DNA of 64,000 nucleotides from Apostichopus japonicus (taxonomy: Eukaryota; Echinodermata; Holothuroidea; Aspidochirotida; Stichopodidae), in assembly GCF_037975245.1 (NCBI RefSeq), contig NC_092569.1:2989001-3053000 (forward strand). Direction: 5' to 3'. The number at the start of each line of letters is the position of its first letter. Within the stretch, counting starts at the first letter, position 1. This document shows positions 114-23,300 of this stretch, piece after piece. The notes under the pieces are model-generated. The model saw only the letters and a list, made by a program, of their open reading frames with translations. It had not been told where the DNA came from and ran no database searches. The position numbers were made by a program, and so were the translations under genes.

Positions 114-924
114 GGTTTCTATGGTAACGCGGGGGAAGACTGGAGTAAGAAATATTAGTGTACACCTCAAAAGGTCAAAAGTGTAAAGGCATGTGAAAGA
201 ATAATGGTTGTAAACTATTTAGGGTTATACTGTGCAGTAAGCTAATCTAGAAACCTCTCTGCAAAGACTGAAATGTATGCTACACGCTCAATTGTAACAT
301 TGGTGGAATTACTCATATAATACAACTTGTGAAAACTGGAACCAAAGATATGGATAAAAACTCTGCTCTCACTTTAAAGGCAATTAAGTTGAAAATGTTG
401 GACATTTAAAATAACATTGAAATTAAGTATGACTGGGTGAACATGTCGCCTTCTCAGTGACCTAATCTCAGAGAAATAAATTGTAATCAGGTCCCATAAA
501 CGGGCGCCAATTATGTAGCCGGTCAAAAACGCAGTGACGAGGCTTAAATATATTTTTAGGTTTGGGAAGATTACAAGTGGCACCTCCAAATCAGGGTAGG
601 GCCGATTTACTCTGAGATCGTGGGGACAACTTAAAAAGGCGGAATGCTCACACAAAAACAAACAAATAAAGGTAAAGTGGTGTGTTTACGATGCACATGG
701 ACGTTGTATTAATATCAATGGGGTTACTTTAACTTAATGTGAAATTATATAAATGGGTGTAACTTACATATCTCGGAACTCTTACCTCTTATAACGACTC
801 CACTGAACTTAATGGAAAAATAATACTTATCAGTCCCAACGAAAATAATAACAAAATCGCGGCGCGGGTCGACCGAATACAATTTGAGAACGAAATTGTC
901 TCCTTGGGAAACTTCTAGGGCGGT

Positions 925-1050
925 TCACTTAGTTGGGGACGTCTCTGGATTGGGTGGTTCTCTGGACAGCTCGCTACTCGGGGAAATAACCTCTTGGGGC
1001 GTCTCAGCTTGGGGCGTCTCAAGGAGAAACTGTTCATCACTCGGGTTGGG
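925..1050 (-). other. Short open frame with an ETPQ repeat, possibly a coding remnant
   Basis: On the minus strand, 41 codons lie between two stops with a composition unlike the AT-rich flanks. It is rich in Pro, Glu, Ser and Thr and contains a doubled ETPQ motif. No ATG, domain or clear splice site was found. It may be a decayed piece of the same kind of element as the fragment at 1-113, but nothing links them directly. Confidence 0.15.
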
Positions 1051-2490
1051 TCATCGCAGGGGTTCACTTCCGGATCCAAACATTGGATTTAAATGGGAAT
1101 TTATAGTTCAGTTCCATCACAACAGAAAATTATAGGGTTGCCAGATATTAGTACAGGATGAAATAAAGTTCTGCCTCCATTGGTACAGCTCCGGGTGAGA
1201 AACTTTTATTAAATATGAAATTTCCTTGTAAAACAGTTCCAGGTTTTTACTAAAATAGAATATCCATTTGTAGAACAAGCTCCAGGTATTCACTAAACTT
1301 CTATAAAAACTCCATGGGTAAATAGCTTCAATTAAGTGTCCATTTAACTTCTAATTAATTTAATACTGGTCGTCTACTCTATTACTGGTGAAGTTAGTCT
1401 AAGAAAATAATTATGATCTCTTGCCCATCCATTTCAAACTTAATCCTTCCCTTCTTCTCCTATTACTATTACAAACTCAATCCTCCCCCTCTTCTTCTCT
1501 AACTACTGTCACTACTGTAAACTTAACTCGGCATCAGTGTCTTATCTTAATTTCCCCCTACCATGCTACCTTATTCACTCCATCCCATAATAATAAGAAT
1601 ACATCCCATAATAATAAGAATACATCCCATAATAATAAGAATACATCCCATAATAATAATACAAGGCAACTTACACATGACCAACTTAAACCAATTAAAC
1701 ACAAAGCTTGGTTCATTGAATATTCATGATTTAGCCTTTGTCTCAACTCTCCCCCCTCCTACTCTAGACCAGCTTGTCCTCCACTTCCTGGTATCTGAGG
1801 TCCAGTGACCAACCAGCTGTCAATTAATACTTAATACATAATTTACCAGACACATTACTTAATTTATGGTGTCCTTTGGTACATTTAAAATAATCATCTA
1901 TCACCAAAACATTCCTATCTAACCAAACAAAAGTTATAAAATTGTCTATTTAACCCACGGTTCTGAAAAGGATAGACTCTTGGAGCCACTCATATATTCC
2001 TAGAAAATAGGACCACGCAAAACAATTACTTAGCTTAAGAAAAAGACAGGTCACACAGGGCCACCCGACCACTAACTGTTGCCATGTAGTAGTTAGCAAT
2101 AAAAGTGAAAATTAAGGGAACTCATAAATCTACCAAGTAAAGGTTATTCATTGTCAAATGAATAAAAACAAAGATAAGAAAATGAAAGAAAATGATTAAA
2201 TGAATAAAAACAAAAGGTGGAAAATAAAAGAAAATGATAACTATACAAAACATTAACCAGGTTATGCTCTGGTTACAACAGCATGTATTTGAATTCTAGC
2301 CCAACTTTATATGCATTTCAAGGAATATCAATTCACTATATGCAGGAGACTTCCAGTACATGTATATCACTAACCATTGTGGGAGACAAAACTTTGAAAA
2401 CAGGTGATTGACTTGGGATTCTACATTTGCTAATTAAGATTGTACAGTTGATGACATATCACCTGCATTGTTCATACTTTCATCATTTAG
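1051..2490. other. Intergenic stretch without a recognised gene
   Basis: AT-rich DNA with a small minisatellite (1581-1662) and A-rich runs near 2155-2240. Short open frames in it begin at non-ATG codons or lie in the minisatellite, and none has a recognisable product. It presumably includes upstream regulatory DNA of the phytochelatin-synthase-like gene. I did not see a convincing TATA box or a metal-response element core (TGCRCNC) close to that gene. Confidence 0.4.
1581..1662. repeat. 21-bp tandem repeat, about 4 copies
   Basis: A unit beginning CATCCCATAATAATAAGAAT repeats at 1581, 1602, 1623 and 1644. Because 21 is a multiple of three it keeps frames open on both strands, which explains the short repetitive open frames here. 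Confidence 0.9.
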
Positions 2491-2554
2491 TAGATTTCAT
2501 TGGTTTATCCTTTTCCTGCTGATCTCTGGTTGTCAACAAATCCTGGAAGCAAAT
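2491..2554 (+). other. In-frame 5' extension encoding a hydrophobic, lipobox-like leader without an ATG
   Basis: The frame of the downstream gene stays open upstream of its first ATG. It would encode a hydrophobic run (FHWFILFLLISGCQQ) resembling a signal peptide, with LISGC looking like a lipobox. There is no ATG in this stretch; the open frame further up begins only with a TTG at 2468. A pyrimidine-rich tract ending CATCATTTAG at 2490 could be a 3' splice site, so an upstream exon might supply a start and a secreted or anchored isoform. Equally it could be untranslated leader. Confidence 0.3.
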
Positions 2555-3208
2555 ATGTCCAGAAATACCATCCCCAAGATTCCTTTTCACTCCGAGGAGG
2601 GCAAGAAGATTCTCGAAGAGGCGGCTTCTCAGCCTTTGTTGATCAAGATGTTCAAGAAACAACAGAATAATTCATTTTGTGGCATTCACAGTTGTGCTAT
2701 GGTCATGAGTGCCCAACACCTGGGTAAAGGCAAGTCCACCCCCGAACTACCAGAATCTGTAGTTGAAATTCCGTACACCGAGTCTAACATGTTTGATTAC
2801 AAAGAAACAACGGAGGCCTTAAGTTTTGAAGATGCGGATACCAAAGGCACAACATTGGATGAACTCAACAACCTCTTCCTTGCTCATGGGAAGAAGGTAC
2901 ATTGCACGTACGCTGCTGAGAGCAATCTGGAAGACTTCCGTGCCGCGGCTTCGGAGGCATTGCAAAACTCCAACTCCAGTAGCGGAGTGATCGTCAACTA
3001 TGACGAATACCAGCTTGAACAAGATGAAATAGTTCATGGACATTTTAGCCCAATTGCTGGCTTCCATAAGGAAAAAGATATGGTCTTATTGTTGGATACT
3101 GAGCTCCAAACAACTGACGTCTGGGTTGGAGTTAAGGATCTTTTTGATGCCATGAATACTATTGATTCTGCAAGTCAAAAGTCCAGAGGATGGATTGTAT
3201 TATTGTGA
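2555..3208 (+). CDS. Phytochelatin-synthase-like protein (papain-fold, N-terminal catalytic domain only)
   Basis: This is an intronless frame of 217 codons from ATG 2555 to TGA 3206-3208. The family (phytochelatin synthase N-terminal domain, clan CA peptidase fold) cleaves Gly from glutathione through a Cys acyl-enzyme. Full enzymes pass the gamma-Glu-Cys unit to another glutathione to make metal-chelating phytochelatins. Visible motifs are NNSFCGIHSC with nucleophile Cys42, GHFSPIAGF with His163, and MVLLLD with Asp181. The His-to-Asp spacing of 18 equals that of plant PCS1 (162/180). Further matches are VNYDEY, DLFDAMNTID and the terminal SRGW. The protein ends right after the catalytic domain and lacks the Cys-rich C-terminal domain of plant and most animal enzymes, so in length it resembles bacterial PCS-like proteins. 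The start is the only in-frame ATG before the catalytic Cys; an upstream exon could extend it. Base composition is richer in GC than the flanks. Whether it makes phytochelatin or only hydrolyses glutathione cannot be told. Confidence 0.9.
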   Translation: MSRNTIPKIPFHSEEGKKILEEAASQPLLIKMFKKQQNNSFCGIHSCAMVMSAQHLGKGKSTPELPESVVEIPYTESNMFDYKETTEALSFEDADTKGTTLDELNNLFLAHGKKVHCTYAAESNLEDFRAAASEALQNSNSSSGVIVNYDEYQLEQDEIVHGHFSPIAGFHKEKDMVLLLDTELQTTDVWVGVKDLFDAMNTIDSASQKSRGWIVLL

Positions 3209-3895
3209 GGTGTAGAAACTTTACAAAAGTAACTTGTGGTTGAAAAAAAGGTTTGAAGGAGGTGAAAGATTGGTGAAATTTCTGTCGTTATTTTAGAGGA
3301 TATGTATTACTAAAGGGGTCCTACCAATATATTACTTAACAAAACATATTGGTCCAGTGTCCTAGTACATAGGGTTAGGGCTATTGCTTGACTTCAAACT
3401 TTGCTCTCTTTCTCAGGAAATAGTTTTGTAGTCTTAGAGTGACTTTTCACATTGTTTCACTTACAGACATGGAACAGTAACATATAGTGCCTACTGCCTA
3501 GCAAAAGAATCCATTTTCCCTTAACATTCTTTAATATTTAATTCAAATATATGCATGCCAGAAGGAAAATTATGCAACATTTTATTGCATGAACAATGCC
3601 CTTTTTTATTTTTTTGTGACTATAGAAACTCTGCTATTACTATTTCCAAATCAATCCAGTGAAATAGTGAAAGACCATTACTTGTTTCAGTCTTGTTTAT
3701 GCTATCTAATTTTTTGCTGTTTGTTTGCGAATCCTTTTGTTTGTTGGTTATATGTTAAAGTCTAAAAGAAAACATGTAACATTTCAAACTCTCTTCTCTC
3801 AGGAATTTTATTAGCATAATTGCACAGGACTATGGTCCAATATATATTTATACACGCATTCAATGATTCAATGATTTTCAACATCTCATGAGAAA

Positions 3896-3901
3896 AATAA
3901 A
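3896..3901 (+). promoter_or_regulatory. Candidate poly(A) signal of the PCS-like gene
   Basis: This is the first plus-strand AATAAA after the stop at 3208, about 690 bases downstream. Position is the only evidence. Confidence 0.25.
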
Positions 3902-5037
3902 GCAATAGAAAACCATAAATCAGTAAAGAAATTCTAATATCTGTTATTGGTGTCTTTTGTACATTTTTTCTCCCACCTTCCATCGTACATTTTCATAATA
4001 GGAATATACAGAGGTCAAAAGGTTGGGGTGCTAGTTTATATAACCCCAGAAGGCTTTAAACATTAACAGACATATCTGTCAATACTGACATTGTGTAATG
4101 TCTTGACTGCTAATTCAAAAGTATCACCAAACAACAATCAATGCATCGTTTTTCCAAGATTTGTGCTCAGTTTATAACATGAAGCTAAGTCATGAATTTC
4201 AAATGTTATCTTGAAATCCCAGAGACTTGTCTCCAAAACTTTTTGAGTGAAAGGCATTTCAATGGATGAAGGCTGAGCACAAAGCAACTTTCTTAATAAT
4301 GATCAACTCTGCCCTCTATCCATACCGCCAGAGATTTGGATGAGAGTATATAGAGGGGGAGAAGGGGGTGTGAGAGAGCAAAAGAAGGAAAATCTGCTTT
4401 GCAGCTGAAAAACTGGACACATCTGATCACTTAGATATTTATACTGGAGCGAATGTAGCCGCTTAGGGTTAGGGTGGAGGGCAAAGTAGGGTTATTTCCC
4501 CTTAATCTACATGCCCCTATTTTCATATCTGTCACTAGCTGTAAACCCATCCTCTTTCATCTGCATGTACTGTGAATGCATCAGAGGCAGGAGTAAAGTA
4601 AATTTGTAAATAAATTTCTTCTGCAACCAACTCAAAGATGGCAGAGGGACTACATTGGGTTGGGAAAGAACTCTTGCAAACAACTGCCTTTTCCAGATTC
4701 AATCAGAGTATTTCTACTTCCTTGCCAGTCTTGAAATATACCATTACCAACGAAGCAATATCAAACCTGTCATTTCAAGTCATTTCATCATGACTTTTCA
4801 AAAGTCATTTCAGGTCAAAAATCTCATTCATTGAATTACTGTTTGATCAATTCTAAATTGCTTTGCAAATCAAAATAAAAAAATAATGTTAAGATAATGG
4901 TGAAATATTGACATGAAGACAAAAGATTTGTCATCTTGGAAATGTTGACTAAGTTTAAAAATTTTCTACAAATTAACTTAATTAACCGTTGATATTCCAT
5001 TTCATAGAATTTTCCCGTACCTGAATAAAATCGCAAC

Positions 5038-5043
5038 TTTAAT
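5038..5043 (-). promoter_or_regulatory. Candidate variant poly(A) signal of WASHC5
   Basis: A minus-strand ATTAAA lies about 200 bases after the WASHC5 stop. A canonical AATAAA on this strand appears only at 3812-3807, so either could be used. Confidence 0.25.
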
Positions 5044-5244
5044 CACAACATAATGATAAGCAGTTTGATATATTCCTTAGATATGATCCCTACCCCTGGC
5101 TCATCCTCCCCCCCCCCCCACCACACCTCTCCTCCTTGCTCTTTGTTTAGAATTGTATCCATGGTTGTGGTTTACTGTGGCATCAGTCCACTATTGGTAA
5201 GTACAGGCTCCATCCAACTATCCATTAAACTCGATGATGAATCC

Positions 5245-5304
5245 TCACTGACAGTTACTCTTAAATTCATCAAAGATGTATGCTGGGATGTGAGCTTCCA
5301 CCAT
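5245..5304 (-). CDS. WASHC5: WASHC5 exon 29 (terminal)
   Basis: Residues 1143-1161 plus TGA at 5247-5245. Acceptor CATATCGTAG. Encodes [19 protein letters not shown], which matches the EAH-P-x-FIFDEF C-terminus of the family; it would be missed by ORF length alone. Confidence 0.93.
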   Translation of the reverse strand: MVEAHIPAYIFDEFKSNCQ

Positions 5305-8300
5305 CTACGATATGAAATAAACAAATTGCTTACAATTCATACTAGCAGCTTTCCATGACATTAAAGGCTTGAGATTAGTGGCAGATGAAGTTGCAATTCA
5401 ATCTCCTCACATCCTTTACATTCCGGTACCTGTCAACTGTCAATTAGCAGACTGTGTGTATTGTATACACCTAAGTACTAGAAGCCTACTGTATTTTGGT
5501 GAGTTAGACATGCAAACATATGATTTGACAGAATCTCAAACTTCACTTAAGTTCCGTAAAATTATGAGATTATACCGCACAGCTAGCTCTCATTTGAATT
5601 TGAAAACAAAAATTACAAGGCTTTCAATTTGTACCTGTGTTTGCTCTAGTTCAATAGGGAGATATTTTAGATAAAACACTGTTCTCTTTTTCCGATCTGA
5701 ATTAGGCGGGTGGGGGGGGGGTGGTTGAATGAGATGGGAGGGGTTGAATGGGAGGGGAGGGGTTGAAGGGGAGGGGAGGTTAATGACAACATACCTGTCT
5801 GGGTAAAGATGCGTAATGTACAAAGTCATCCAGATAGGCCAACGTTGAAATCACCTCCTGGGGGAGCTCGGATGCTTTGGCACTGTGAACAAATAGAACA
5901 AGAAATATTTAAAATGCCACCTTTTGGGTTGCATATCGCTACCAACTGGTCAGAACATAAACAACTTGCCTTTCATAAGATAAATGTTTAAGAATTTATC
6001 CAACTACCCAAGATGTCCTGTCTGAGCCTAAGTGCTTCAACAAAGATCAGGTTATTTACTGATTGAAGCACTATTATTCAAATTAACTGACTGACTGACT
6101 CATTTACTCACTGAATGACTGACTCATTCACTCACTGAATAACTAAGGGTTGACTAATCCCTGCCTCTGATCTCCCACAAGGTAACCTTTACTGTTAATC
6201 CTACTTCTGTGGTTGATTAATCCCTGTCTAATCCATCACATTCTTAATCTTTACTGTCATTTCCAACATCAGGATTGACGTATCCATCTCTAATCCCCCA
6301 GAGGGCCAATCTTTACTGTTAATCCTACTTCTGTGGTTGACTAATCCCTGTGTCTAATCCATCACATTCTCAAACCTTACTGTCATTTCCAACATCAGCA
6401 TTGACGTATCCATCTCTAATCCCCCAGAGGGCCAATCTTTACAGTTAATCCTACTTCTGTGGTTGACAAATCCCTTCCTTAATACTTCACTTTCTTGAAA
6501 CTAGTTGATAACAGTTCTAGACAAACCTTGAGGCTGCAGCTTCCACAGTAGACTTGACATACTGGCCGAGGAGGGCAAGGAATTGGTCTGTGTTCTCAGA
6601 GTGGAATTGTTTCAGTAGAGTGAGGGTCCCACAGACGAACGGTGGCCCGTCCAAAGGGTCCTTGGGCATCTTACCAACGATGCTTCCTGCAAACCACAAA
6701 CAAACACAAAATATTGAAAAAACCTAAACTGCAATCATTCAAGGATATTACGATAATTCAGATATGATCACGGAATAACTTGCACATTTTGTTTAAACTC
6801 CATTTGGTGAATACCTTTCGACTTGTTTTGCACAATTGAAAGCTTTATTTTGAGAAGGTTTGGCCAGGTGAGATATTGTACATTAAATGCAACAATGTCC
6901 TTCACGTGACTCTACTGAAAATATTGACAACTCTTGATATCGACTTGCAAAGAAATTTTTGGCAGGCGAGGGATTTGAAACTGTGAACTCAGTTATACAA
7001 GCCCTATGTTGCTCTTCCAACTGGTTGATCCAGCCCATTTCTTTGCTTTGGGTAGGGCAGAGGTGTGGGGGGAGGGGATTGGTGTCAGTCAGAAGCCACA
7101 GCTTAAGAAAAATAATTATAACACAGAATTCTTGAAATAATTAGCTTACAGGAAACAGTCAACCAATGAAACCTCTTTAAATCTGATCATCTCTCTTCCT
7201 ATTGGACACTTTCATGTGAATCATGAATAATCATCATCAAAATTGAAAGTTCTGACTCTGTTGCTCACCGACACTTTTGACGTAATCCAGCTTCGGCAAC
7301 TGAGTGATCACGAACAAGAACGTGAAGAGAGAAAAATAAGGCAGACGTTTGGGGGTGATGTAAATCTGAAAAGAAAAAGGAAATGCCAAAAGTCTTACTC
7401 AGAAAGTGTCTAAATATGGGATTATATCCAAGCTATAAAGTATCACTATAATTCCAATACATCAGTTTTCACAAACTCTGTTACATCACATAACCCAACC
7501 AGAATGAGACTTGGATATTGTGGGTCAATATATCGATTTGAAGTATCAGTAGATACCTGAATTAATACAAGCAAAGCGGTACATTTAGAAAACATCAGTA
7601 AAGAGTAAAAATTATGAAATGTACCTTTTTTTGAGGAAAATTTATGTTTGCAGCTTATTTTTAAGTGCCAAGAAGTTTCAGAAGATGGGGCCCGAGGCCT
7701 CCTGATGTCACTTCCTAAATCCATCCATGTAAATGTTAATCTTGGCAATGACACCATGCGTACAGCATACATTTATTTATCCTCTCATAGGGACAAAGTG
7801 TTTCTGATACTTTTAACTTATCTGCCAAAACTTCCTCAACTGTTGTGTAAGAGATTATCTTATGAGATTGAGAATCAGAGCTGCTATCATTCTTCTGTCC
7901 TCTTCTAGCTAAGACATTTGCTCCCAAGCTCATTTTTCTTTTCCCCATCATTTTGTATATGCTGTTGTACTGACTGTCACAAATTTTGAAAAAATATTTG
8001 GGTACCATATTTTGTGTACCGTATTTTGTGTACCATATTTTGTTTACCATATTTTGTGTACCGTATTTTGTGTACCGTATTTTGTGTACCGTATTTTGTG
8101 TACCATATTTTGTGTCCCATATTTTGTGTACCACATTTTACAAACACTACATTATCTCTGTCTCAAGTACAAATAAATATGATGTGAAGAAATGGATCAA
8201 ACTGACCTGAAATTTTTTTGCAAATTGTGACTCACCTTAGCAAGAGGGTCAGTGATGCCGGCGCACTCGAGATAGGACGTCAGCTCGAACATCAGAGGGT

Positions 8301-11300
8301 TGTCTTCCGAGGGATAGGGTTTACTAGGGTCTTGGTAGTGGGCCTCTATTTCTGCCATTAGACCCCTGAAAGGAACAATGGGTGGGTGGGTGGGTTAAGT
8401 AAAAACAAAGAACACAAAAAAACACTAATATTACAGTAAAGTTCTATAAAGTTATGGATACTCTTCTATAGATAACTAAATAATCATGATACTACCACTT
8501 GTCATTATTGTGTTCTTTATAAAGCTTGGGTAACTCAATCAGTTTTAATTGTGATTAATTATGGTAATCAGTTAATTTAATTAAGAAATTTAAAATTTAA
8601 TCAAGTAAAGTAATCAATTGTAGTTTGTTTTAACCTTCCATCCTGGAAAGCTATATCATGAGAATATTTCCCCCATGAGTACTCACTCGTTCATCGTCTG
8701 AAGGGCACTGGCCAGAAACTTTGAGTCAAATTTGCAAGTGAAGTTGAGTTCATTAGCAATCTGCCGTCTGAGTAGTTGCATTTGTCCCACCTATGTTATG
8801 AAGAAGACAAAAGAGGATGTAGCTTAAAAACAATGAATTAGAGTATTTAAATTAATTAATAGTCAATCAGATTAATAAGTGATTTCCTTCATCTTCTCAT
8901 AGAAAAGGCAGAAAGATAATATTGTTTTTTTTTTATAAATGTAAGCAAATATCACTCAAGAATATGTTACATCAATCATTGCAGCAAAATATTGATAACT
9001 TTAAAATGACTTGTTCTGAAGGTGAGGCAAGGGGTGATTGGGGGTGGAACCATAGTTGAAAAATATGTGGGATACTTTGCTCCAACTTCAGTGTTAAAAG
9101 GATGAATAAATCCCTCTTACGTAGTAAACTTTGGTACTGAATGTGATGATGATACAAAGTCCAACTTTGGGTCATGCAAGTCACTGATTATTAATTGGTC
9201 AATGATAACCTGTCCCAGAGACAATCCCTCCAGTCGGCTGCAGTAATATACTGCGCCCAATGACAAGGTACCTCACAGGTTCCCATTTAACCCCTGGGTG
9301 CAGAGAGGCAATTGAGATAAAGCATCTTGCCCAAGGACACAACGTAACGAACTAGGCAGGAATGGAACCAGCAATCCTTGGATAACGAGTCCGACAACGC
9401 CTTAGCCTATTGGCCACCATGCTCTCCCATATTCAAAATGAAGAAAAAAAAGCATATTATCCAGGAGTGAGTGAGAAGTATATTTTTTCTTAATACCTTT
9501 AAGACGACATTGCTGAACGGTTGCCAAAGCTTCGTGGCTTTGGTCTGGTAGTAGCTGTACAGCTTGGAGGGGTTTGCTGAAAGATATTAAAGTAACAAGA
9601 AACTTCAGATAATATATTCTATAAATACCTGAATTTTTGATATTTACCTTTAAAATAATTGCTTCTCATGACAACATCAAATCAATGTCACAAATGTTTG
9701 AGAAAAACCTGACAAAAACAAGTTTATAATTATTGAATGTAATGTTTCCTCTTTGTCAGAGAAATCAACCAATCCCTTTTGCAGCAATATTAGACGATTT
9801 TGATTTTCACTTTTGAAACGTTTTTGATACGTTTTGAAAATATTTTTGCTCGTAAAATGAATTATCCTTGAAAGAAAAGAAAAGTGTGAAAACTTCCCAA
9901 ACTGAATAAAATTTTCTTCTGACCACAGCTAGTACTTAAAAAGACATTTTCCACAAAGAGGACTTCATAATAACAATGTCACATTTGTTAGTTATTTCTA
10001 AATGATTGTGAGGGAAGGATTGATGAGACAACTCACATATGAGACCTTTGACCGGGTTCAATGACTTCATGAAGCTACCAAACATATCCAGCCAGGCTTT
10101 GTCTTTCAAAACGCCTCTCTCCATGATGGACAAAAAGTTTTGTAGCTCCCGAACCATCATGAAGCATATGAGGCGGTCCACGCCAGTCAGTCCGCAGGTA
10201 CCGATGCTTTGCTGTACATGAAAGATTTATGGATTACAACATGGAAAAATGCTGTACATTAAATGCTGTACATTAAAGATTTAAGGATTACAACATAGAA
10301 AAGCTACAAGAAATGTAAAAACTTGCATCTTAATCACGAATGCCAAGCTTAGAAGATGTTGACTTTTGACAGTAGTAAGTTTTGTAAATAAAAATGCTGT
10401 ACATATTGTACATAAAGATTTATGGATTACAACATAGAAAAGCTACAAGAAATTTTAAAAACTTGCATCTTAATCACAAATGACAAGGTATAGAAGATGT
10501 TGATTTTGGCTGTTGTAAATTTTGTAAAAAAAAAAATTGCTGTACATTAAATAATGTACATTAAAGATTTCTGGATTACAACATGGAAAAGCTGCAAGAA
10601 ATGTAAAAAACTTGTGTCTTAATCACACATGCCAAGCTTAGAAGATGTTGATTTTGGCTGTAGTAATTTTTGTAAAAAAAAAAAAATTATTCTGGCCTTT
10701 GATATCAATATTACCAATGCTTGCATATTTTCATTGTAAAAATGAAAATCTTCATATGAAACATTCATCAGCATTGAAGGAAGCCTTTTAAACAGTTTCT
10801 TCAGTCTTACATACCACATCATCATTTACTTCAGCAAAGGAGAAAGAACGTTTTTCAAATTTGGTGGAAAGTATGCTAAGGTTAATAATGAAATGTAGCA
10901 GGCTTGTTCAAAGATGGTAACACGAAGGAGAGATATGCAACTAAAGATTTACCTGTATTCTTTTAAAGACTTTGCTGTCAAGGACTTCCTGTTTAGTTTT
11001 GTTGTCGTACCAAGTGTTCATCTGGTCTACGTAAGTGGTCACTCTAGGGTAGAGAGAAGGGACAGAATTGAGATATCTTAATTAACATTCCCACATCAGC
11101 AAAATAAAGTCTGCCAAAATCATGATATGTTAAATTTTACGATAAAAGTTTTGCTTTTGAATGCACGGTCGTGTGGGTCATGCAGTGATCCACCACCCCC
11201 ACCCCCACACACATTCCATTGCAAGCATTCCGTTAACAGATAGATCAAACGATACCATAATATGAATGATATAATAAGTCACAAAATAAAATTTGATATT

Positions 11301-14300
11301 ATGGTATATTAAAAATTATGGTAAACAATTCCTATCAGCTTAGGTTCCCTTTAAGTACCACTTTCATGTTTTTGAGATAAGCACCATTTAATATAAGAGT
11401 GAGATTGGCTGGACTAGTTTGCAGGCCCTTATGTCAGCTCTTCAGTTATAATTTACACAAAGCACCTTTGACCTTCATGACCTTAACAATCATGTTTAAA
11501 TATGAATTACCAAATTTGTCATATTCAAACGGTGTTTATTTCATCTTTGCATACTATGCTGCCATAAACAAAGAAGTTATAAAGAAATAGTTTGGTGGGG
11601 TTTAAAGAGAAATAAAAGGATAAATCCTTAGATTGGTTTACAATTAAGACCTATATCGAGGAGCTGATCTTGTCGCAATGTTTGGTTTAAAGGAGTATTC
11701 CTTCATTTGGTTTAAAGGAGTATTTCAGACATTTAAAAAACTTTTACACATCTGAATATCTTGAAACAAGTATAAGACATAGAAATACATTCTATCACAT
11801 ATCTTATGGGGTTTTTTTGGACAATAAAATATCGATATTCATCTTCTGGCTAACTGATCCATTATTCAAATCTAAATCTCTCCCATCACATCTACTTGAT
11901 CCCCCGTGATCGTGACTCATTTACATGCATTTTAATGTCTGTACTTCTTAGTGAGATTGGAAATGAACGGATGGAATATTACCTTGGATCAGTAATCCGT
12001 AATATCTCCCGGACCAGCCTTCCCATGAAGTTGATGGAGCCGTCTACCAGTGGAAATTTGGGGATGGGAATGGTGGTTGATTGGTAAAGACTCTGCCAGT
12101 CGTGTACCTGGAATATCAAAAGAATATATGCTATTAATATATAGGAAACATTTTAAGTATCTTACAAAATTAGTTATTTTGCTGAAAAAAAACCTTTAAT
12201 ATATCATGATCAAGAAAATGATTTGTACTAGCACAGATCTCCAATTTTTTTGGCTGCAGATGAAAATGATTTGTACTAGCACAGATCTCCAATTTTTTTG
12301 GCTGCAGATGGAAATGATTTGTACTAGTACAGATCTCCATTTTTTTTGGCTGCAGATGAAAATGATTTGTACTAGCACAAATCTCCAATTTTTTTGGCTG
12401 CAGATGAAAATGATTTGTACTAGCACAGATCTCCAATTTTTTTGGCTGCAGATGGAAATGATTTGTACTAGCACAGATCTCCAATTTTTTTTGGCTGCAG
12501 ATGGGGACAAGAATATTTGCCTAGAAATGAGAACAAATGACCTCATGAATAATAATATTGTACAATGGAACAAGACTCAGGGGTTTCTTTGGGGGCATGA
12601 CACTACTGCCATCTTTCCAAGGAAAGAAGAAGTCTATTAATATTATGCAAATATGCCTCCTTTCAAAGCAAAACCAAATTGCTGATTGTGAACCTGTTTT
12701 GCTGAAGAAAACAGAAACTACCAAGCCAGCAAAATTTTTTTACTTTTTAATGATGAAACAAAGAAAACAAGCAATGATATTTATTTGATTTACCTTGGTC
12801 CTGAGGAAACTGTTACACTCTTGTTCCATGTTGTAATTAATGATCCTAGTGACCTCCTCTTGCCAGATCTTCAGACCGTGGATGTCGACGTAATCTTGGA
12901 TGTATTCAAAGGAACGGATGAAGCCGTCCATTCGGGCTCCCAATGATTTCAGCTTGGGCAGCAGCTCGTTGGTCTGTTTGGGAGAATAAGGGAGGAGACC
13001 AAAGGCAGAGGAGGGTAGAAAATGATGGAAACTGACAAAGTGTGAGGAGATGTTATACACTGCGTAAACTAGGATGTGCATCATAAATGATAGAATCAGG
13101 CGTGTCAGGAAATAGCAAAATACTTGGTTCTGATTGGCTATTATTCATATGACATTCATTGTGACAGTCTCCTGGTACATATGAAATAACAGAATACCTA
13201 AATACAAGCTTGTGATTGGCTGTTAACCATTTCAGATACATTGTGACACTCTGCTAGTACAGTACAATGGGAGAGATACCCCAAATACAAGCTTGTGATT
13301 GGCTGTAAACCCTATCACATACATTGTGACAGTCTCCTGGTACAGTACAGTGAGAGAGAAACTCCAAATACAAGTCTGTGATTGGTTGTAAAGCCTATCA
13401 CATACATTGTGACAGTCTCCTGATATGGTACAGTGAGAGAGAAACTCCAAATACAAGCTTTTGATTGGCTGTTAACCCCATCACGTACATTGTGACAGTC
13501 TCCTGATACAGTACAGTGAGAGAGAAACTCCAAATACAAGCTTTTGATTGGCTGTTAACCCCATCACGTACATTGTGACAGTCTCCTGGTACGTTACAGT
13601 GAGAGAGAAACTCCAAATACAAGCTTGTGATTGGCTGTTAACCCCATCACGTACATTGTGACAGTCTCCTGGTACGGTACAGTGAGAGAGAAACTCCAAA
13701 TACAAGTTTGTGATTGGCTGTTAACCCCATCACGTACATTGTGACAGTCTCCTAGTACGGTACAGTGAGAGACAAACTCAAGGTATCAGCTGTAAGCCAG
13801 GTGAAACTATCCACCAAGTAACTTACCTTGGCCTTTGGGTTGAAAATAAGACCACTGTGCAAGGCAGCCGCCACTTGTTGCACCAGTTCCTTTCTGATTC
13901 CATCTTCCAAAAGTTGCTTGGGGTCAATCTTTGAAAGAAAAGAGAAATGATACTGACTTCATTCTGAGGGGGGGGGGGAGGGGTTGAAGAGATGGGATTG
14001 GAATGGACTTACAAAACATTTGTGAGTCACATAAAGTGTGTAAAAATGACTGGCTAAGGCTGGTAAGTAGCTTAAAAATGTCCTACCATACATTGAAACA
14101 TCAACCATGAAAAACTAACTTGTTAATGCTTGTTCTGCGGGGGGTGGAGATAACGGGAGAGGTAACAATGTTGATCATCATTAGCCCTGCCCTGTGACAA
14201 AGGTTAACAATAACTGGTTGGGTTTGCACCTTTTTCCCTCTAGACTTCGAAGAGAGGCAATCCTAAAGATCAAACGTCTTACCTTGATTATTCCCACCAG

Positions 14301-17300
14301 AGTGGTCTTCATCATCAGAATACCCTCCGTAAACACCGAGATGGAATGGGTTAGCTTTGCGACCTGTAAAATCAAGAAAACCGTTAATGCTTGGTGCCAA
14401 ACAAAAAAAAATCTGTTCTTTTTCATCAGCTGACTTTATAACTAGAAGGGGATCATATTTGGTAAGGGGATCATATTTGGTAAGGGGATCATACTTGGTA
14501 AGGGGATCATATTTGGTAAGGGGATCATATTTGGTAACAAATAATTCCTTTTCCCAGTACCTCTTTTATACCCTACCCAGAAAAAAATGATCTTTCTGCA
14601 TACATCATTCCCACCCGCGATCAATGATGTAACAGCTTGCCAGTCATTAATACTTGTAGTTATAAATACTAAAGCTACAAATAAAATTACATTGGGAGGT
14701 TGCTTTTTATGATTTAACAACAATACTCTTATTCACTTCACAAATAATCACCTCCAGTCTCTCATGGATAGCTACTATATCAAAGGCATTGTCCAGAGAG
14801 AGACCTTTCTTTTTGACTGATGAAAGACCAACATATTCTAAGCATCCTGGAGAAATTTGCATTCAACTCCTATGACATCTAGTTTTGTGACATTGATCGT
14901 GGAATTTGTGACAGTTTATACTGTAATACTGTATAGGTAAACTTTAAGCAAATAGATGTGATGTCATATTGACACAAATAATGTAAACTTTACGCAAACA
15001 GGTGTGATGTCATAATTACAAACATATAGTAAACTTTAAGCAAACAGGTGTGATGTCATAATTACACACATATAGTAAACATAATGCAACCAGGTGTGAT
15101 GTCATAATTACACACATAAAGTAAACTTTACGCAAACAGGTGTGATGTCATAATTACAAACATATAGTAAACTTTAAACAAACAGGTGTGATGTCATAAT
15201 TACACACATGAAGTAAACTTTAAGCAAACAAATGTGATGTCATGACACAAATAATGTAAACGTTAAGCAAACAGATGTGATGTCATAATTACACACATAT
15301 AGTAAACTTTAAGCAAACAGGTGTGATGTCATAATTACATATCTTGGACAGGGATGGATGTTGATTTGCATGAAAAAAGAAAAAAAATGTTTAAGACAAT
15401 TTTTGTCTGTTTAATATAAAGCTGTAAATATACCTCATATCTCTGATCTAGTTGTGCAAAATCTCTGAGTTTATCTTTCTCCAACCTGGTTGGAACTTCT
15501 TTGATGCTATGTGTCTGAAGCTGTATGATCTGGAAGAGCAGGCTAAACATTGTCTGTGGAATAATCTGTAGCACCTACACAAAGAAAGTAACAAACAGAG
15601 AAAACTGTAACATGATTAGAAAACACTACTACTGCAATGCATCTAATCTCTCGTACATGATATAGCCAGAATTTTGAATTCTTTGATGCTATGTGTTTTG
15701 AAGATGGCTGATCTCGAAGAGCAGGCTAATCATTATCTGTGGAATGATCTGTAACATCCACATACCCCCACCCCCCTCAACACACACACAAAACAGAGAA
15801 AAGTAAGACCAGACTAGAATAACTACCGCAATGCATCTAATCTTTCGTACATGATATAGCCAGAATTTTGAATTCTTTGATGCTATGTGTTTTGAAGATG
15901 GCTGATCTCGAAGAGCAGGCTAAACATTGTCTGTGAAATAATCTGTAGCATCTACATAAAAAACAAACCACAAAACAGAGAAAAGTAAGACCAGACTAGA
16001 AAACACATCTGTTGCAATGAATGCATTAACATTAATCTTTCATATATGACAAGTCAGTACCTTAGCAAAGGCCACATCCAGCATAACACTTGGGATCAAA
16101 ATTTTTTGGGGTCACCTTGTGCTTTAGACTAAAGATTACAAGGGTGATAGGAAATCTGTCCATTTGATCAAAGGTCAAACCGTTAAACATATTCCTTACC
16201 TCTCTGACGTAGGAGACCAGCTCGCTGGAGTAATACTGAGAGACGCTGACGAGATCGGGGCTGTTAGCTTGGAGGATGCGGATGAGAGGAAGATCAAGAG
16301 CGGAGGCAAGCTGGAGAGGAAGACAAGAAAGTAAAGAAACCATCTATGACAATGACTGGATTGTTTGCTTAGGAATACCGACATCACAATTGATGCTAAT
16401 TGGTGCTCACTTACCTTTGTTAGAGTGCTTGTATCATGATAGGGTCTGCAATAAATTAAACAAATCATGCAAGACCCAACACACCCTTTGTTTGAGCACT
16501 ACAATTACAACCGCTCTGGACTGCGTTTATGCCCACCACGTACACTTAGGGGCCCGCTACAGATACTCATTTGTGCCTAATACTATCCATATATTTAATT
16601 CACAAGTGAGCAGATAAGTTTCTTATTTGTAGGACTTGCTGTATATATGTTTGTATTACTGTATGTATATCGCATTCTATTGATACTTATACTGTTGCTT
16701 TTCTTTATTTCTTTTTTTCGTTTACGACCTGTGTAAGCCGTATTTCCGATTGTGGACAATAAATTCAAATTCAATTCAACCAGCACTGCAACTATTAGTG
16801 GCTGTGATTTTTATTTCACAGGGATTTATTTTACAGATGAAGAAGAATAACTTAGGCATTCCTGATAACTGTTATACTAAAAGTAACTGTTTAGTTGAAT
16901 GTATAGTGTGGACAGTGCCAGGTGCTGCCGACTGCCAATCAGGCAAGCACTGCATGCTGAGTTTTCATGACTCAGGCTGACACTAGTGTTGGAAAATCTT
17001 TGATCAGTGGTAGCATTAAGCACACACACAAAGCCCTAAATTTAATGATTTCCCACTCAACGAACAGGTGAGTCTGGTAGGGTTCTGTCCACCAGTGCGC
17101 AACCAGCTTAACTTTCATACAAAGGTCACATTTGCAAGAGTCCTACCCTGCAAGTAGAAGCATCAGCTGATGCATGACTTTCAAAAATGGGTTTCTTCTC
17201 ACTTCGTTCGCAAGAGGAATTCCCAAAGCTAAATGAAAACAGCGATTATGAGTTACATAAACATAAGAAGAAAAAGACCAAAAAAAGAGATGAAATTTAC

Positions 17301-20300
17301 AGTGAATATTAAATTACCTTTACACTAAATATTAATTACCTTTAGGAATGTAGCCCTGAGCTTAATAACCAGGCCTGGGTTGGTCTTGATACCTTGCTGC
17401 ATGAATCTGGTAAAGCTGTAGAATGAAATGAGACAGTTACGTCAGCTTTATCACTGTCTGAGGGTTTAACCTCCCCTACCTCTACCTCCAAGAAATGTAA
17501 ACTACCTTAGAACAGACACATCTTCTATAACCTAAACAATAATAAAGCAAAGCTTCCAGTCTGCATGGATCATCATAAATTTGTTGTTCAAAACTTAAAG
17601 AGTGAAACAAAAGTTTTAAATGCAAGAAGTTAGTGGATAACTGCACATGTTACACTTGTGGCAGGAGGGAGGGGGGGGGGAAGGGATGGTGGGATTTCAA
17701 ACCTAGCTGGCTGTTTTATTCTCTCATCCATCCAGAACGACTCTATCATATTCCAATCAGATTTTTTTATTGAACTTTCACATAGAAGAGGGAAATTCCC
17801 CCAGTTACAAAATGCATAAAAGAGCACTAAGACATTGCTGGGTTGCTATGGTGATAATACATACCTGTCCAAGGCTGTTCTCTAAGACATTGATGGGTTG
17901 CTATGGTGATAATACATACCTGTCTAGGGCTCTTCTTTAAGAGAGCACTAAGACATTGATGGGTTGCTATGGTGACAATACATACCAGTCTAGGGCGTCC
18001 TTTAAAGAGCACTAAGACATTGCTGGGTTGCTATGGTGATAATACATACCTGTCCGAGCTGTTCTTTAAAAGAGCTAAGACATTGCTGGGTTGCTATGGT
18101 GACAATACATAGCTGTCCAGGGCTGTTCTTTAAGAGAGCTATGACATTGCTGGGTTGCTATGGTGACAATACATACCTGTCTAGGGCTGTTCTTTAAGAG
18201 AGCACTAAGACACTGCTGGGTTGCTATGGTGACAATACATACCTGTCTATCATTATCCACGCATACGATAGGTCAGCCACAATTTCCATATTAATGAGGA
18301 CCTCTTCTTTAATGTTTATCGTTCGGATCATTTGATGGAGGAATTTCCTGGTCTCGGCCAAGAACTGACGGACCTGGAGGTTACTCTCCAACTGGTGGAA
18401 TTCTTGAACCTAGGAGAGGATGAAATTGAAAGCTCTGGGCCTTCTTTTCACGACCAAAATCGAAGAAAGAGGAAAGCAACAAAATGGCTTCTTCTACATC
18501 ATCGCCAGTTTGCGACTGAAAAAAAACAACTTTTAATTATCATGAAACTTAGTACACATGTTGACTGTTGACTTGTAGTCGACCGAAATTGCTGTTCATC
18601 TTTCAGACAAAAATACCAGCAAATTCTACTGAATTTATAGATAGATAGACGGATCAAATTGTTTAAAGTCAATTCAAAGATTCTAACCTCCTCCAGAGCC
18701 TGTATCAGCTGTACGATCTTCCGGCCGGCTGCTGTCGAGTCATCGTAGTTTAGAGACGTTATCTGCTGTGACATTTCTTTGAACCATGCTTGTAGATTGT
18801 CTGTTGAAGGTGATCATGACAAGCAATAATTGAGTTTAATTAGGTGAAATTTACAGACTTTCACATATGAGGGGTAACAAAAAGAAAACCATTCAAACCA
18901 AGCAAACTCACACTCAAAACAGCAGATTTATATCCATGTGTGGAGAGGATACTCATTTTTTCTCAAGCAAAACCCAGCTTGTTAGTTTCTTAGTGCAATA
19001 GTCTGAACAAATATCACAACAGTTTTGTGGGGTTTTTATCCTTTTAGGAAGAACGACCTTGCATGGAAAGACAGAGGTCTTCTAAACATCACACGTCTTC
19101 TGTCCATGTCTCACAACAAAATCTTGTAGTGATGCCACTCTTCTTTCCCAGCCCTAGCTTATTATCAAAAGGAGAAAAAAAAATTCACCTCTGAAGAAGG
19201 ACAACCTCTGACATTGGAAACTGAATTTCACTCACATTTAATAGATGTCTCTCACTGAGTCGAGATAATTTGTTACCTAAATATACAGTGTTTCATTTCA
19301 CTTACTTCATCAGCACATGCAATTACTTTACCCCTCTGTTTAATATTCATCTGTAAAAATAATGTAAATTCTAAATATCTCTCTGCTGTTATTTAAACCA
19401 AGTTGACAATAGAGAAATCTTCTGGCTACTTTCTCTGCCGATTTCCCTTGATTTTGAGGCTATCATCTGTCTCCTCCTCCTCCTCCATGAATATATTTAC
19501 GATTTTAACTCACCATTCTTAGATACTCTTGTGAGAGGTTTGGTCCCGGAGAAAACCTCAGACAGTTCTGTCATCCTCTCAACTCCCTCCAACTTGTACT
19601 TCTCCCAGTTATCCTGTTTCTCCACCAGCATTTTCTTAAACATCTATAAATGAAAGCGATATATTATTAAAAGATACTGAAACCAAAATTTACTGCATTG
19701 TTATTTGCTCTTTATTATTGTATTATTATGTATTATTAATCCATATCTTCTATATTGTAATTTCATTGTACATCCCTTTGAAAGACATCAGCTGGGTATT
19801 GACTTTATATATTTACTCCATCTGAGGTCACGGACGGGAAAACGCTTAAAGGAGCCGATGGCACTTTATAGACAAAGTCCAATTCACACCCAGATTCACT
19901 CCAGCTACTATGGCAACTCTCTAATCAATCTCTGGGACTCTCTTTTACCTTTTCCTAAAACAATCTGCCTCTGAAAATCCTGCTAAGATTGAGATATCAG
20001 GCCGTCTAACTTTTATACAAAGCAGTTTGTTAACAGTTTTTTTTACAAAAATAATAATTTCAGCCCTAACTGTTATATGCAGATTAGGATTAGTAAATCT
20101 GCTATAAAATTATGGTAGGCTTACAAAAGATAAAGCAACTTGTTAGAACAGCCAACAGACTTTTAAGCATCTTGTGAGACATTAATGCATTCAGTATTCT
20201 ATCAAGTTTATTCCAAGGTAAGAGAGATATTTCTGCAGCAGATACAACAAGCATATCACAAATACGTAAATTGTTTTTAGGGTTACGCTTGGATTTCAAC

Positions 20301-23300
20301 TAAATCCAATTTTTGATTGCGACGTCAAATATCACCTACCTCCTTTAATTTGTATTCCAGCTGCCCCGTGTTTAACAAGAGCTCAAACAGTCTCTGGGGG
20401 TTGTACTTCGAATCTGCCATGACCTGTTCCCGCAGTTGACGACATCTCTTGTTCACGTCCCACGCTACCGAAGCACGTTCAAAAGATGAAAAGTTGAATC
20501 TGTTATAAATGGCTACTAACTTTCCAATACAAATTAAATGTATTGGATTGAGTAGACAGAAGCTAAAAATCACTGATTATTTGTCAAAACTGCTCATTTC
20601 TTTAAGAATGAACACAGAGATCTCTGTAAATAATAATCATGACATTAACAGAAACACTTCTGATGAAAAGTGGGAACAAAAATTCAAAAAAAAAATTCTT
20701 GGGGCAGACTTGGAATTCTTCTACGTTGCTGATAAACTATAGAACCCTACTGGTCACAATGTAGGCTAAGATTATTGTGACACTGTGCTTTTTCTTAAGA
20801 TCAAAAACTGGATATCTCTTTTCAACATTATCAGCAGGTAACAAGAAAAGAAGTTGACCACAGGTAGGAAAAGAAAAAAAAGGCGGGGAAAAATGTGAAA
20901 AAAAGTTAGTAGGACACTTACGTCCTTCAGCATTGTGCAAAATCAGCCAACGTATAGTGACATTACAATCTCGCAGACAGTTCATCAGTTTTGGAATGTT
21001 GTCCAAGACAAATTCTTCCGAAAGAGAGCCCTCTGTTAGATAGTGCTTGGTATCGCCGATCAACTTGTCTAACTTTTTGCAGTGTTTTACAGACTGCCGG
21101 GAAAACGAACGATCAGCATGTTAAATCTTTTACGATGATAGTTTCGAGAAAAAAAAAGTGAGTCAACAAAAATGAAAAAAAACACAGAAAAAGAAAATAC
21201 TGTTAAAATTTATTAGAACTTGAAAGTATCCCTATAAAAAGAAGTATTCACTGCTTAAATCTGCCTTTCTAAAATTAAAGAAAAAGCTAGATCGACTATA
21301 AAATATCATGAAATATGATTAGCACCTAAAAAGATCCAACTCAAAATTATTCAGGCTTCCAGGATGGAGGGGCAGTATTTCAGATATCTGAAGCTGGCAG
21401 GACAGGATGATTTAAGGCAGAATTTTTGTTTTGATTTGTCATCATGAAAGAAACAACTTAAAGTGCTGGTAATGCTCCTATAGCTATTTCAGATATTCAA
21501 ATTTTAAAATATGCTAAACGTCTGGACTTTGCCTAAAGTCGATCATGGTAAGTACTTCACTGCACAGAGTATGGTGCTCAGTAGACAGAAATGCAGCAGT
21601 TGTGAGGAGACAGGTAAGGGAGGGGATAAAACTGATCTAACGTACCTGCAGCCTGACATTGTCTACATTTAAGGTGTTGTTGAGGGCGGTCTTCGATGCC
21701 TTGTATGGATCCCAGGCATCCACGAGATTGACCACGATACCCATATAAATGGTCGTAACCTTTGAGAGAAAAGGGAGAACAAAATTAAATTTCTGGGAAC
21801 AAAAATGTATCATGCAAGTTTTACACAGTTGTCGGTAGCGTTAACGGAATTTGATGATTTGAAGAAAAAAAAATTTGCATCCGGATAACGTTCTCCAAAC
21901 GTCTCAGTATGCTGCTAAGAACTGTCTGGAAATTTCCAACCATTTAATGACACACTGAAAATCAATTTTTGGGATATATTGTAACTTGTGATGATAGTTC
22001 CATATGGAACCAAAATGTACTAGGATTAGATTTCAATATCTGAAATAATTCTTTTGTTCAAAATGAAGAATGCTTTTCATTTGATGGGGTGAAGCACAAC
22101 ATTCAGTCAACGTCTATATAACTTCTTATTCCATGTTTTGTGACAAGTTCTTCTTCAATATTTACCAACTATTGACTTTTCTGCCACTCAAATTTTGTTT
22201 AAGTTGAGAGATATTGACATCACAGATTCCACAGTGTCAATATTAATGCTCCTTTATATGAACACCACCTATAACATTTGCTCCTGTTTTTGAGATACTA
22301 GATATCAAATATGAGAAATTAACTATACTTATTACCCTGTTCTCATGTCATAACTACCAAGTTGTGTTAGGTAAGACCTTTGCCTTTTAAATATTTTTCA
22401 GCTATATAAATATTTTGATAATATACAATAACATAAACTCACAACAATTTTGGTTCATTAGCTAGAATTGTCAAGGTTTCCTTTCCAAAAATTAATCAAA
22501 ATTTTGAGATTTTTTTTGGTTAAGTTTTCAAATTTGCATTTTGCATGTAATAACTATTTTAATGTCCGGGCGACAAAAAATGCGGAGAATCCAACAACAT
22601 TCACAAATAACTGGACTCATGAATATTCACATCATGACAAATCTAAAACAATGGTTTTGTTTGATCAGTTTCCACTCTTAATTGGAGTAATATCTGGTAG
22701 AGTTTGGTGAAACTATTTAATCAAAGTAAACAAAAGCAACAAGAATAATTCTTTTTGATTTTTAATTAACCTGCACCTTAATCTGAAAACAACCCCACCC
22801 CCAACCCTTTCCCCCACAAAACAAAAGAAGAAGAAAGGTTTGGTTTCCTTTTCACCCTTACCCAGTTGTCGGGAAAGTGCTTGTCGACTATCTCTCTCAT
22901 TTTGGCCTGTTGACTGTGAAGCGTCTGCGGCGCGAAATATAAGATAACGTAGAGCATGGCAGCCTGAGTGGCTAGTGCTGTACTTCTGTGTTCTGGCAAG
23001 GGGTAGGCTGAAATCTGGGGGACATAAAGCAAAAAGATTACATTAATAGAATTGGCTATCGTAGTAAACATCAATGACTTCTCATAATCTTTGTAGCTTA
23101 GCAGCTTTTCTTCAATAGTAGAGGATATAAAAATACTTTGAAACTTTCAAAGTTTTGGAACCTAAGAGTTGCGTCCAATGCAGGATGCTGATTCACAAAG
23201 TTCAAACTTGTGATGAGAAACACAGCATGACAATAAAGTGAGATATCATCATGAAAATATCATCAAGAACCACTAAAGATGACATGGTACGTAAATGGAA

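Follow-up and report, generated by a model that had tools for sequence, protein, structure and literature searches.

Phytochelatin synthases (PCS) illustrate how a protease fold has been turned into a peptide synthase. In the reaction glutathione acylates the catalytic cysteine, glycine leaves, and a second glutathione accepts the gamma-Glu-Cys unit. The cavity for this second substrate consists of Gln50, Arg152, Lys185, and Tyr186 in the plant enzyme AtPCS1 and of Gln64, Arg173, Lys206, and Tyr207 in the Nostoc enzyme, and PMC3855540 describes these residues as invariant throughout its alignment of PCS, which includes C. elegans. Mutations of AtPCS1 left 0.02% (R152A), 0.02% (K185A), 0.01% (R152K), and 0.56% (K185R) of the wild-type activity, and F184A and Y186A had very low activity. 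According to the same source Arg152 may bond with the catalytic histidine and aspartate, and such mutants may disturb the first site too (PMC3855540). For enzymes with one domain PMC7411734 describes the Nostoc protein as a peptidase in the main, which makes PC2 very weakly, and reports a cadmium-induced transpeptidase activity in the cyanobacterium Geitlerinema. The isolated catalytic domain of the Schistosoma protein was found to hydrolyse a glutathione S-conjugate with release of glycine, and also to make PC2 at a rate equal to that of the full protein (PMC3561135).

A gene of this family is present in a stretch of 64,000 nucleotides from the sea cucumber Apostichopus japonicus (assembly GCF_037975245.1, contig NC_092569.1, positions 2,989,001 to 3,053,000), which is called the window here. 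The preliminary description had reported a PCS-like gene limited to the catalytic domain and without an intron, and this was borne out. The open reading frame 2555-3208 on the plus strand encodes 217 amino acids, of which residues 8-213 match positions 10-210 of the 210 positions of the Pfam profile PF05023 with an E value of 1.1e-41 and a score of 142.9 bits as compared to a curated cut-off of 24.9, which places the protein in the family. The solved cyanobacterial enzyme Alr0975 aligns to residues 9-215 (E 2e-31), and with E values of this size chance is ruled far out as the source of the two matches. The catalytic triad Cys42-His163-Asp181 is complete as had been described, its residues standing in register with the Cys-His-Asp triad of the relatives in the alignments. 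The protein terminus coincides with the end of the catalytic domain. The single-exon status covers the coding region alone, and a 5' non-coding exon may exist.

A close prokaryotic source was looked for and rejected. With patterns built on the query by itself, no relative turned up in prokaryotic genome contigs, viral contigs, or phage records, and a plasmid search yielded 17 records with identities of up to 33%. An alignment-based search yielded three relatives in viral contigs and at least 544 in prokaryotic genomes; the best 80 of the latter were retained. The alignment used throughout contains the two sea cucumber copies of the gene and 89 relatives, namely six of the 17 plasmid records, the best 80 of the at least 544 prokaryotic-genome matches, and all three viral-contig matches. 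The features of the gene are given below, with residue counts among these 89 relatives (best 80 of at least 544 prokaryotic matches included).

2463..2554, plus strand: in-frame open stretch 5' of the ATG, hydrophobic, resembling a signal peptide by eye; open in both copies with few differences
2555..3208, plus strand: PCS-like gene, one coding exon, 217 amino acids, catalytic domain only; reading frame without internal stop, profile match
2660-2662, plus strand: codon of Gln36, equivalent of the oxyanion-hole glutamine; Gln in 87 of 89 relatives
2678..2683, plus strand: codons of Cys42 (nucleophile) and Gly43; Cys in 89 of 89 relatives
2999..3046, plus strand: residues 149-164, corresponding to the Arg152 loop of AtPCS1; acidic here, two residues longer, no Arg or Lys before His163
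3041..3043, plus strand: codon of the catalytic His163; His in 89 of 89 relatives
3095..3127, plus strand: residues 181-191, catalytic Asp181 and the following loop; one residue shorter
3164..3190, plus strand: residues 204-212, with Asp204, Arg211, and Gly212 retained
3896..3901, plus strand: first AATAAA past the stop codon, a possible polyadenylation signal

The role of the oxyanion glutamine is taken from PMC3855540. Upstream the reading frame is open to a stop at 2435 and contains no ATG before the one at 2555. The stretch 2463-2554 may be 5' untranslated region, a piece of an unseen 5' exon, or chance; joined to such an exon it could give a secreted form of the protein. Bacterial-type promoters gave six matches where 3.4 were expected (standard deviation 2.0), which is no signal.

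No C-terminal domain as in the two-domain eukaryotic PCS was found, and the stop codon stands at the domain border. Unrecognised C-terminal exons nearby had been named as an observation which would overturn the one-domain description; in a tblastn search of 91 kb, comprising the window and the preceding 27 kb, queries taken from the C-terminal portions of three long PCS-like proteins of bacteria gave nothing significant (best E 0.19). The profile of the C-terminal domain, PF09328, had no match in the genome and was equally silent in 14 of 14 control genomes, hence this result carries little weight. A splice donor might be suspected in the GT-rich sequence at the stop codon, yet no C-domain match follows in these searches, and the sequences downstream of the gene in the two tandem units described below differ by several indels; hidden C-terminal exons were rejected.

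Among the described systems Nostoc Alr0975 (NsPCS; PDB 2btw, 2bu3, 6th5) shares with the sea cucumber protein the single domain, a similar length, the triad, an asparagine four residues before the cysteine, and a terminus at the domain border. In NsPCS the cavity for the second substrate still has Arg173, Lys206, and Tyr207 (PMC3855540), whereas the sea cucumber copies have lost their equivalents. Like the prokaryotic half-PCS the 217-residue protein is confined to the catalytic domain, but these are at most 37% identical to it among the matches listed, and the sea cucumber gene is an animal gene which is tandemly duplicated. With the two-domain PCS of animals and plants (AtPCS1, C. elegans, Schistosoma) the PF05023 domain is common, the identity to the catalytic domain of AtPCS1 being 32-33%, and the segments GHFSP and MVLLLD are alike. 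In contrast to these proteins no C-terminal domain was found, the coding region has no introns, the acceptor residues are lost, and a Trp- and Cys-rich segment is absent. Two mutually identical IMG/VR viral-contig proteins (L088:2779-3360 and L089:3001-3582) resemble the sea cucumber protein in having no equivalents of Arg152, Lys185, and Tyr186, but have other replacement residues, a length of 206 amino acids, and 23% identity (L088). Some relatives were seen in other surroundings. Two conjugative cyanobacterial plasmids carry a 397-residue plant-like PCS (L001:1962-3155, L002:1962-3155) with a cation-transporting ATPase gene nearby, two Myxococcota sequences (L047, L083) are longer PCS-like proteins which group with AtPCS1 in trees, and on a Salipiger plasmid (L003:126-4540) a PCS-family gene, the product of which has a signal-like N-terminus by eye, lies amid genes for a multicopper oxidase, a c-type cytochrome, and a GMC oxidoreductase.

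The residues of the two substrate sites have fared differently. At the columns of Arg152, Lys185, and Tyr186 both sea cucumber copies have glutamate, glutamine, and threonine, so that the second-substrate site which characterizes phytochelatin synthase (EC 2.3.2.15) is found in neither copy. In the 89 relatives, with the best 80 of at least 544 prokaryotic matches among them, the Arg152 column holds arginine in 87 and a gap in the other two, the Lys185 column lysine in 78 and arginine in six, and the Tyr186 column tyrosine in 85; 11 of the 89 deviate at one or more of the three sites, and all three are lost only in L088 and L089. Where PCS reads Arg-Phe-Lys-Tyr-Pro-Pro, residues 181-191 of both copies contain no lysine, arginine, or tyrosine. 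The loss does not depend on details of the alignment, as there is no arginine or lysine at all from Tyr149 to His163 or from Asp181 to Val191. The family motifs had been called clear in the preliminary description; this holds for the triad, which is aligned, and fails for the acceptor motifs Arg152 and Phe-Lys-Tyr-Pro-Pro, which are gone in both copies. On the donor side, Asp181 has aspartate in 88 of the 89 relatives, and Asp204 and Arg211 are likewise found in 88, the remaining row being truncated there and showing a gap (best 80 of at least 544 prokaryotic matches included). In the Nostoc structure the equivalents of Asp204 and Arg211 contact the first glutathione; a literature search for this contact found nothing.

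With a probability of roughly 0.55 the locus is read as a functional, tandemly duplicated gene of the animal, the product of which would be a papain-fold member of the PCS family with one domain that has retained the donor half of the active site, lost the acceptor half, and acts as a deglycinase. The predicted product is a deglycinase of glutathione or glutathione conjugates that no longer makes phytochelatin, and to call it a phytochelatin synthase is probably a functional misnomer. In the proposed mechanism Cys42 would attack the Cys-Gly bond of glutathione or of a glutathione S-conjugate, glycine would depart, and a gamma-Glu-Cys acyl-enzyme would be left. Since acidic loops have taken the place of the basic pocket for a second glutathione, the acyl group would pass to water and not to glutathione. 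The product would thus be gamma-Glu-Cys or its S-conjugate, not phytochelatin, and the gene would serve to turn over glutathione conjugates, not to chelate metals. With the donor side retained and the acceptor side lost hydrolysis is to be expected, and the argument for it rests on the lost residues and not on the missing domain, since one-domain enzymes can synthesize, as the Schistosoma and Geitlerinema examples demonstrate. A point against the reading is that some bacterial relatives, among the 89 with the best 80 of at least 544, have no equivalent of single acceptor residues.

Two other functions have to be weighed against deglycination. The acceptor pocket might have been rebuilt from other residues and the gene might still be the metal-detoxifying PCS of the sea cucumber. 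It would be the sole candidate for this role, being the only member of the PCS family detected in the genome, its triad and donor-site residues are retained, and PC2 synthesis by a lone catalytic domain (PMC3561135) and cadmium-induced synthesis in a cyanobacterium (PMC7411734) have been described. Both copies, however, have no arginine, lysine, or tyrosine after Asp181 and no arginine or lysine between Tyr149 and His163, and even the conservative changes at two of the sites leave AtPCS1 with only 0.01-0.56% activity (PMC3855540), which makes continued phytochelatin synthesis improbable. An unlikely outcome, though one to be taken more seriously than continued synthesis, is that the fold now serves another substrate, such as a different gamma-glutamyl bond, an isopeptide bond, or an amine acceptor suiting the acidic pocket, and that glutathione has been abandoned. 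As Arg152 may position the catalytic histidine and aspartate, a wholly new substrate, little activity, or a complete loss of activity on glutathione is conceivable. The very long branch of 2.7-4.0 changes per site, the reversed charge of the acceptor loops, and the exchange E183W in an acceptor loop between the two copies point in this direction, but the residues tied to the first glutathione are retained, i.e. Asp204 and Arg211 and the oxyanion glutamine (for the glutamine, PMC3855540).

That the gene is maintained can be seen from its duplication. The surroundings of the two copies comprise the following features, the contig which carries the window being C9.

C9:2976295-2980334, outside the window: tandem unit A, about 4.04 kb (self-comparison)
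514..2277, no strand assigned: window-side LTR of 1764 bp, part of a 10.1-kb LTR retrotransposon in unit B
2278..5251, plus strand: downstream part of tandem unit B, which begins at C9:2980333 (self-comparison)
6556..28289, minus strand: WASHC5 (strumpellin), tail-to-tail neighbour, 22 PF10266 segments

Self-comparison revealed a head-to-tail duplication of about 4.04 kb, in which the second copy occupies C9:2977653-2978303 and encodes a protein 94% identical to that of the window copy. The coding regions differ at 27 of 654 bases without any indel, and 12 residue changes separate the proteins, one of them being E183W in the lost acceptor loop. By the Nei-Gojobori method dS is 0.110, dN 0.026, and dN/dS 0.24, and dN is below dS with p 0.0003-0.0008 (Fisher's exact test on rounded counts). 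For the flanking blocks 2277-2434, 3209-3290, and 3522-4104, the 806 ungapped columns contain 57 substitutions (7.1%), and indel events number 13; the sequence from 3283 to 3522 has no counterpart in unit A and was omitted from this count. Coding region and flanks differ in substitutions with p 0.017 (Fisher's exact test). The block 2435-2554 shows three substitutions and one indel event, and the regions 3' of the gene differ by several indels between the two units. The gene pair has evolved under purifying selection, the share borne by each copy not being resolved by the test. A tandem pair with 94% protein identity, a dN/dS of 0.24, and no coding indels marks a maintained gene.

Inside unit B, upstream of the window copy, a 10.1-kb LTR retrotransposon spans C9:2981155-2991277. 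Its partner LTR at C9:2981155-2982918 is 99.943% identical to the window LTR (one difference), a target-site duplication of 4-5 bp flanks the element, and the empty site is preserved in unit A. The retrotransposon is very young. Its near LTR end sits 277 bp before the ATG of the window copy, so the upstream region of this copy is mostly new. The element has a long pol-like open reading frame on the minus strand, Ty3-like by eye.

Searches for other PCS genes spanned the whole assembly of 671.58 Mb in 35 contigs. Both copies were recovered by the PF05023 profile (E up to 10), by the 397-residue plant-like cyanobacterial PCS, and by the catalytic domain of AtPCS1, and no further PCS was detected genome-wide by these three queries, a search in which only the best candidates were scored and which very short exons could escape. 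None of 14 control genomes gave a match to PF05023. A third place on contig C3 (E 1.49) contains two internal stops, is non-coding by eye, and was rejected. As a positive control an exon-by-exon search recovered WASHC5 in 22 pieces, so an ordinary PCS split by introns should have been visible. A retrocopy of a living parent gene, which had been offered as one explanation of the locus, is unsupported since no intron-bearing PCS was detected while this control was positive. Two PCS sequences of the sea urchin S. purpuratus appear in the tree of PMC3838358, so echinoderms had PCS. No publication dealing with a sea cucumber PCS gene was found in titles and abstract openings, with subscription journals and preprints thinly covered.

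The phylogenetic check proposed at the outset gave a divided answer, and the trees were built without animal or algal PCS, a gap which limits what they say on origin. In a quick tree of 91 rows (best 80 of at least 544 prokaryotic matches included) the pair falls among bacterial half-PCS, with 96% SH-aLRT for a set of 10 and a branch of 4.0 changes per site, while in a careful tree of 43 rows picked from 92 it stands beside plant-like PCS (88/82) on a branch of 2.67, where long branches meet. The AU test rejected none of four alternative groupings (p 0.101, 0.254, 0.115, and 0.336). At 17 columns which separate 77 half-PCS from four plant-like PCS, counted with nine of the 89 relatives omitted (divergent plasmid and viral ones among them), the query reads as half-PCS at five, as plant-like at six, and as neither at six. 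The query has Asn38, and asparagine occurs at this column in only 47 of the 89 relatives (best 80 of at least 544 included); this residue makes the protein N-type in the sense of PMC11314372.

A bacterial half-PCS gene may have entered an ancestor of the echinoderms by horizontal transfer, then changed fast and been duplicated in tandem. This origin is given somewhat less than an even chance. It would account for the single domain, the coding region without intron, and the N-type asparagine (PMC11314372), and agrees with the 91-row tree, but the 43-row tree, the split of the diagnostic columns, and a best identity to a prokaryotic relative of just 37% among the matches listed speak against it. 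Held possible to the same degree is a degenerate descendant, possibly an old retrocopy, of an ordinary animal two-domain PCS which lost its introns and C-terminal domain. The sea urchin sequences of PMC3838358, the failure to detect any other PCS in this genome, and the resemblance of the stretch from His163 to Asp181 to plant-like PCS favour such a descent, which is at odds with the missing Trp- and Cys-rich segment, with half-PCS-like residues elsewhere, and with a parent gene not being detected in the genome. Between transfer and degeneration the evidence does not decide, given two conflicting trees, a very long branch, and four alternative groupings none of which was rejected. Bacterial contamination, which the preliminary description had named as a refuting possibility, or a pseudogene has nothing in its favour except the absence of coding-region introns and is practically excluded: the 37.46-Mb contig which bears the locus, in the assembly of an echinoderm, also carries WASHC5 and the LTR element, and the tandem copies are intact and under purifying selection. 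The echinoderm nature of the assembly shows in its mitochondrial genome of 16,099 bases, in which COX1 reads through under table 9, with AAA at several positions of conserved asparagine, and the genes follow one another, by eye, as COX1-ND4L-COX2-ATP6-COX3-ND3-ND4-ND5-ND6(minus)-CYTB, the order of sea urchins and sea cucumbers. Codon use correlates at 0.60 with 625 host codons, taken from the stop-free segments among 19 WASHC5 segments, as compared to 0.12-0.45 with the four bacterial relatives tried; being nearer to the host it is as expected of a long-resident gene. Third-position GC is 0.48 in the gene and 0.57 in the host codon set.

With a natural variant under selection that has the donor half and no acceptor half, one could test directly which residues turn the fold into a synthase. 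If deglycination is the true function, a farmed animal with PCS-family genes may make no phytochelatin, which would bear on the handling of cadmium, arsenic, and glutathione conjugates in echinoderms, and the label PCS in animal annotation can mislead. A wider and rather doubtful proposal is that sea cucumbers have no phytochelatin synthase, and that the sole family member in the genome represents a third lineage deep within the PCS fold. Its acceptor pocket would have changed from basic to acidic and the transpeptidase would have become a dedicated hydrolase or a transferase for a new amine. Echinoderms would have acquired or rebuilt this gene, which is now present in two copies, one of them with the very young retrotransposon close upstream.

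The neighbour on the minus strand is WASHC5 as had been recognized, with 22 strumpellin-profile segments at 6556-28289 of the window, the nearest of them 3.35 kb from the gene. The 19 of the 22 segments which were translated look like strumpellin except where intron sequence interrupts. Tandem repeats lie between WASHC5 segments at 12262-12504 and 13193-13779 of the window, and two open reading frames of 176 and 297 amino acids at 28878-30338 on the plus strand, upstream of the first WASHC5 segment, look by eye like pieces of a LINE reverse transcriptase.
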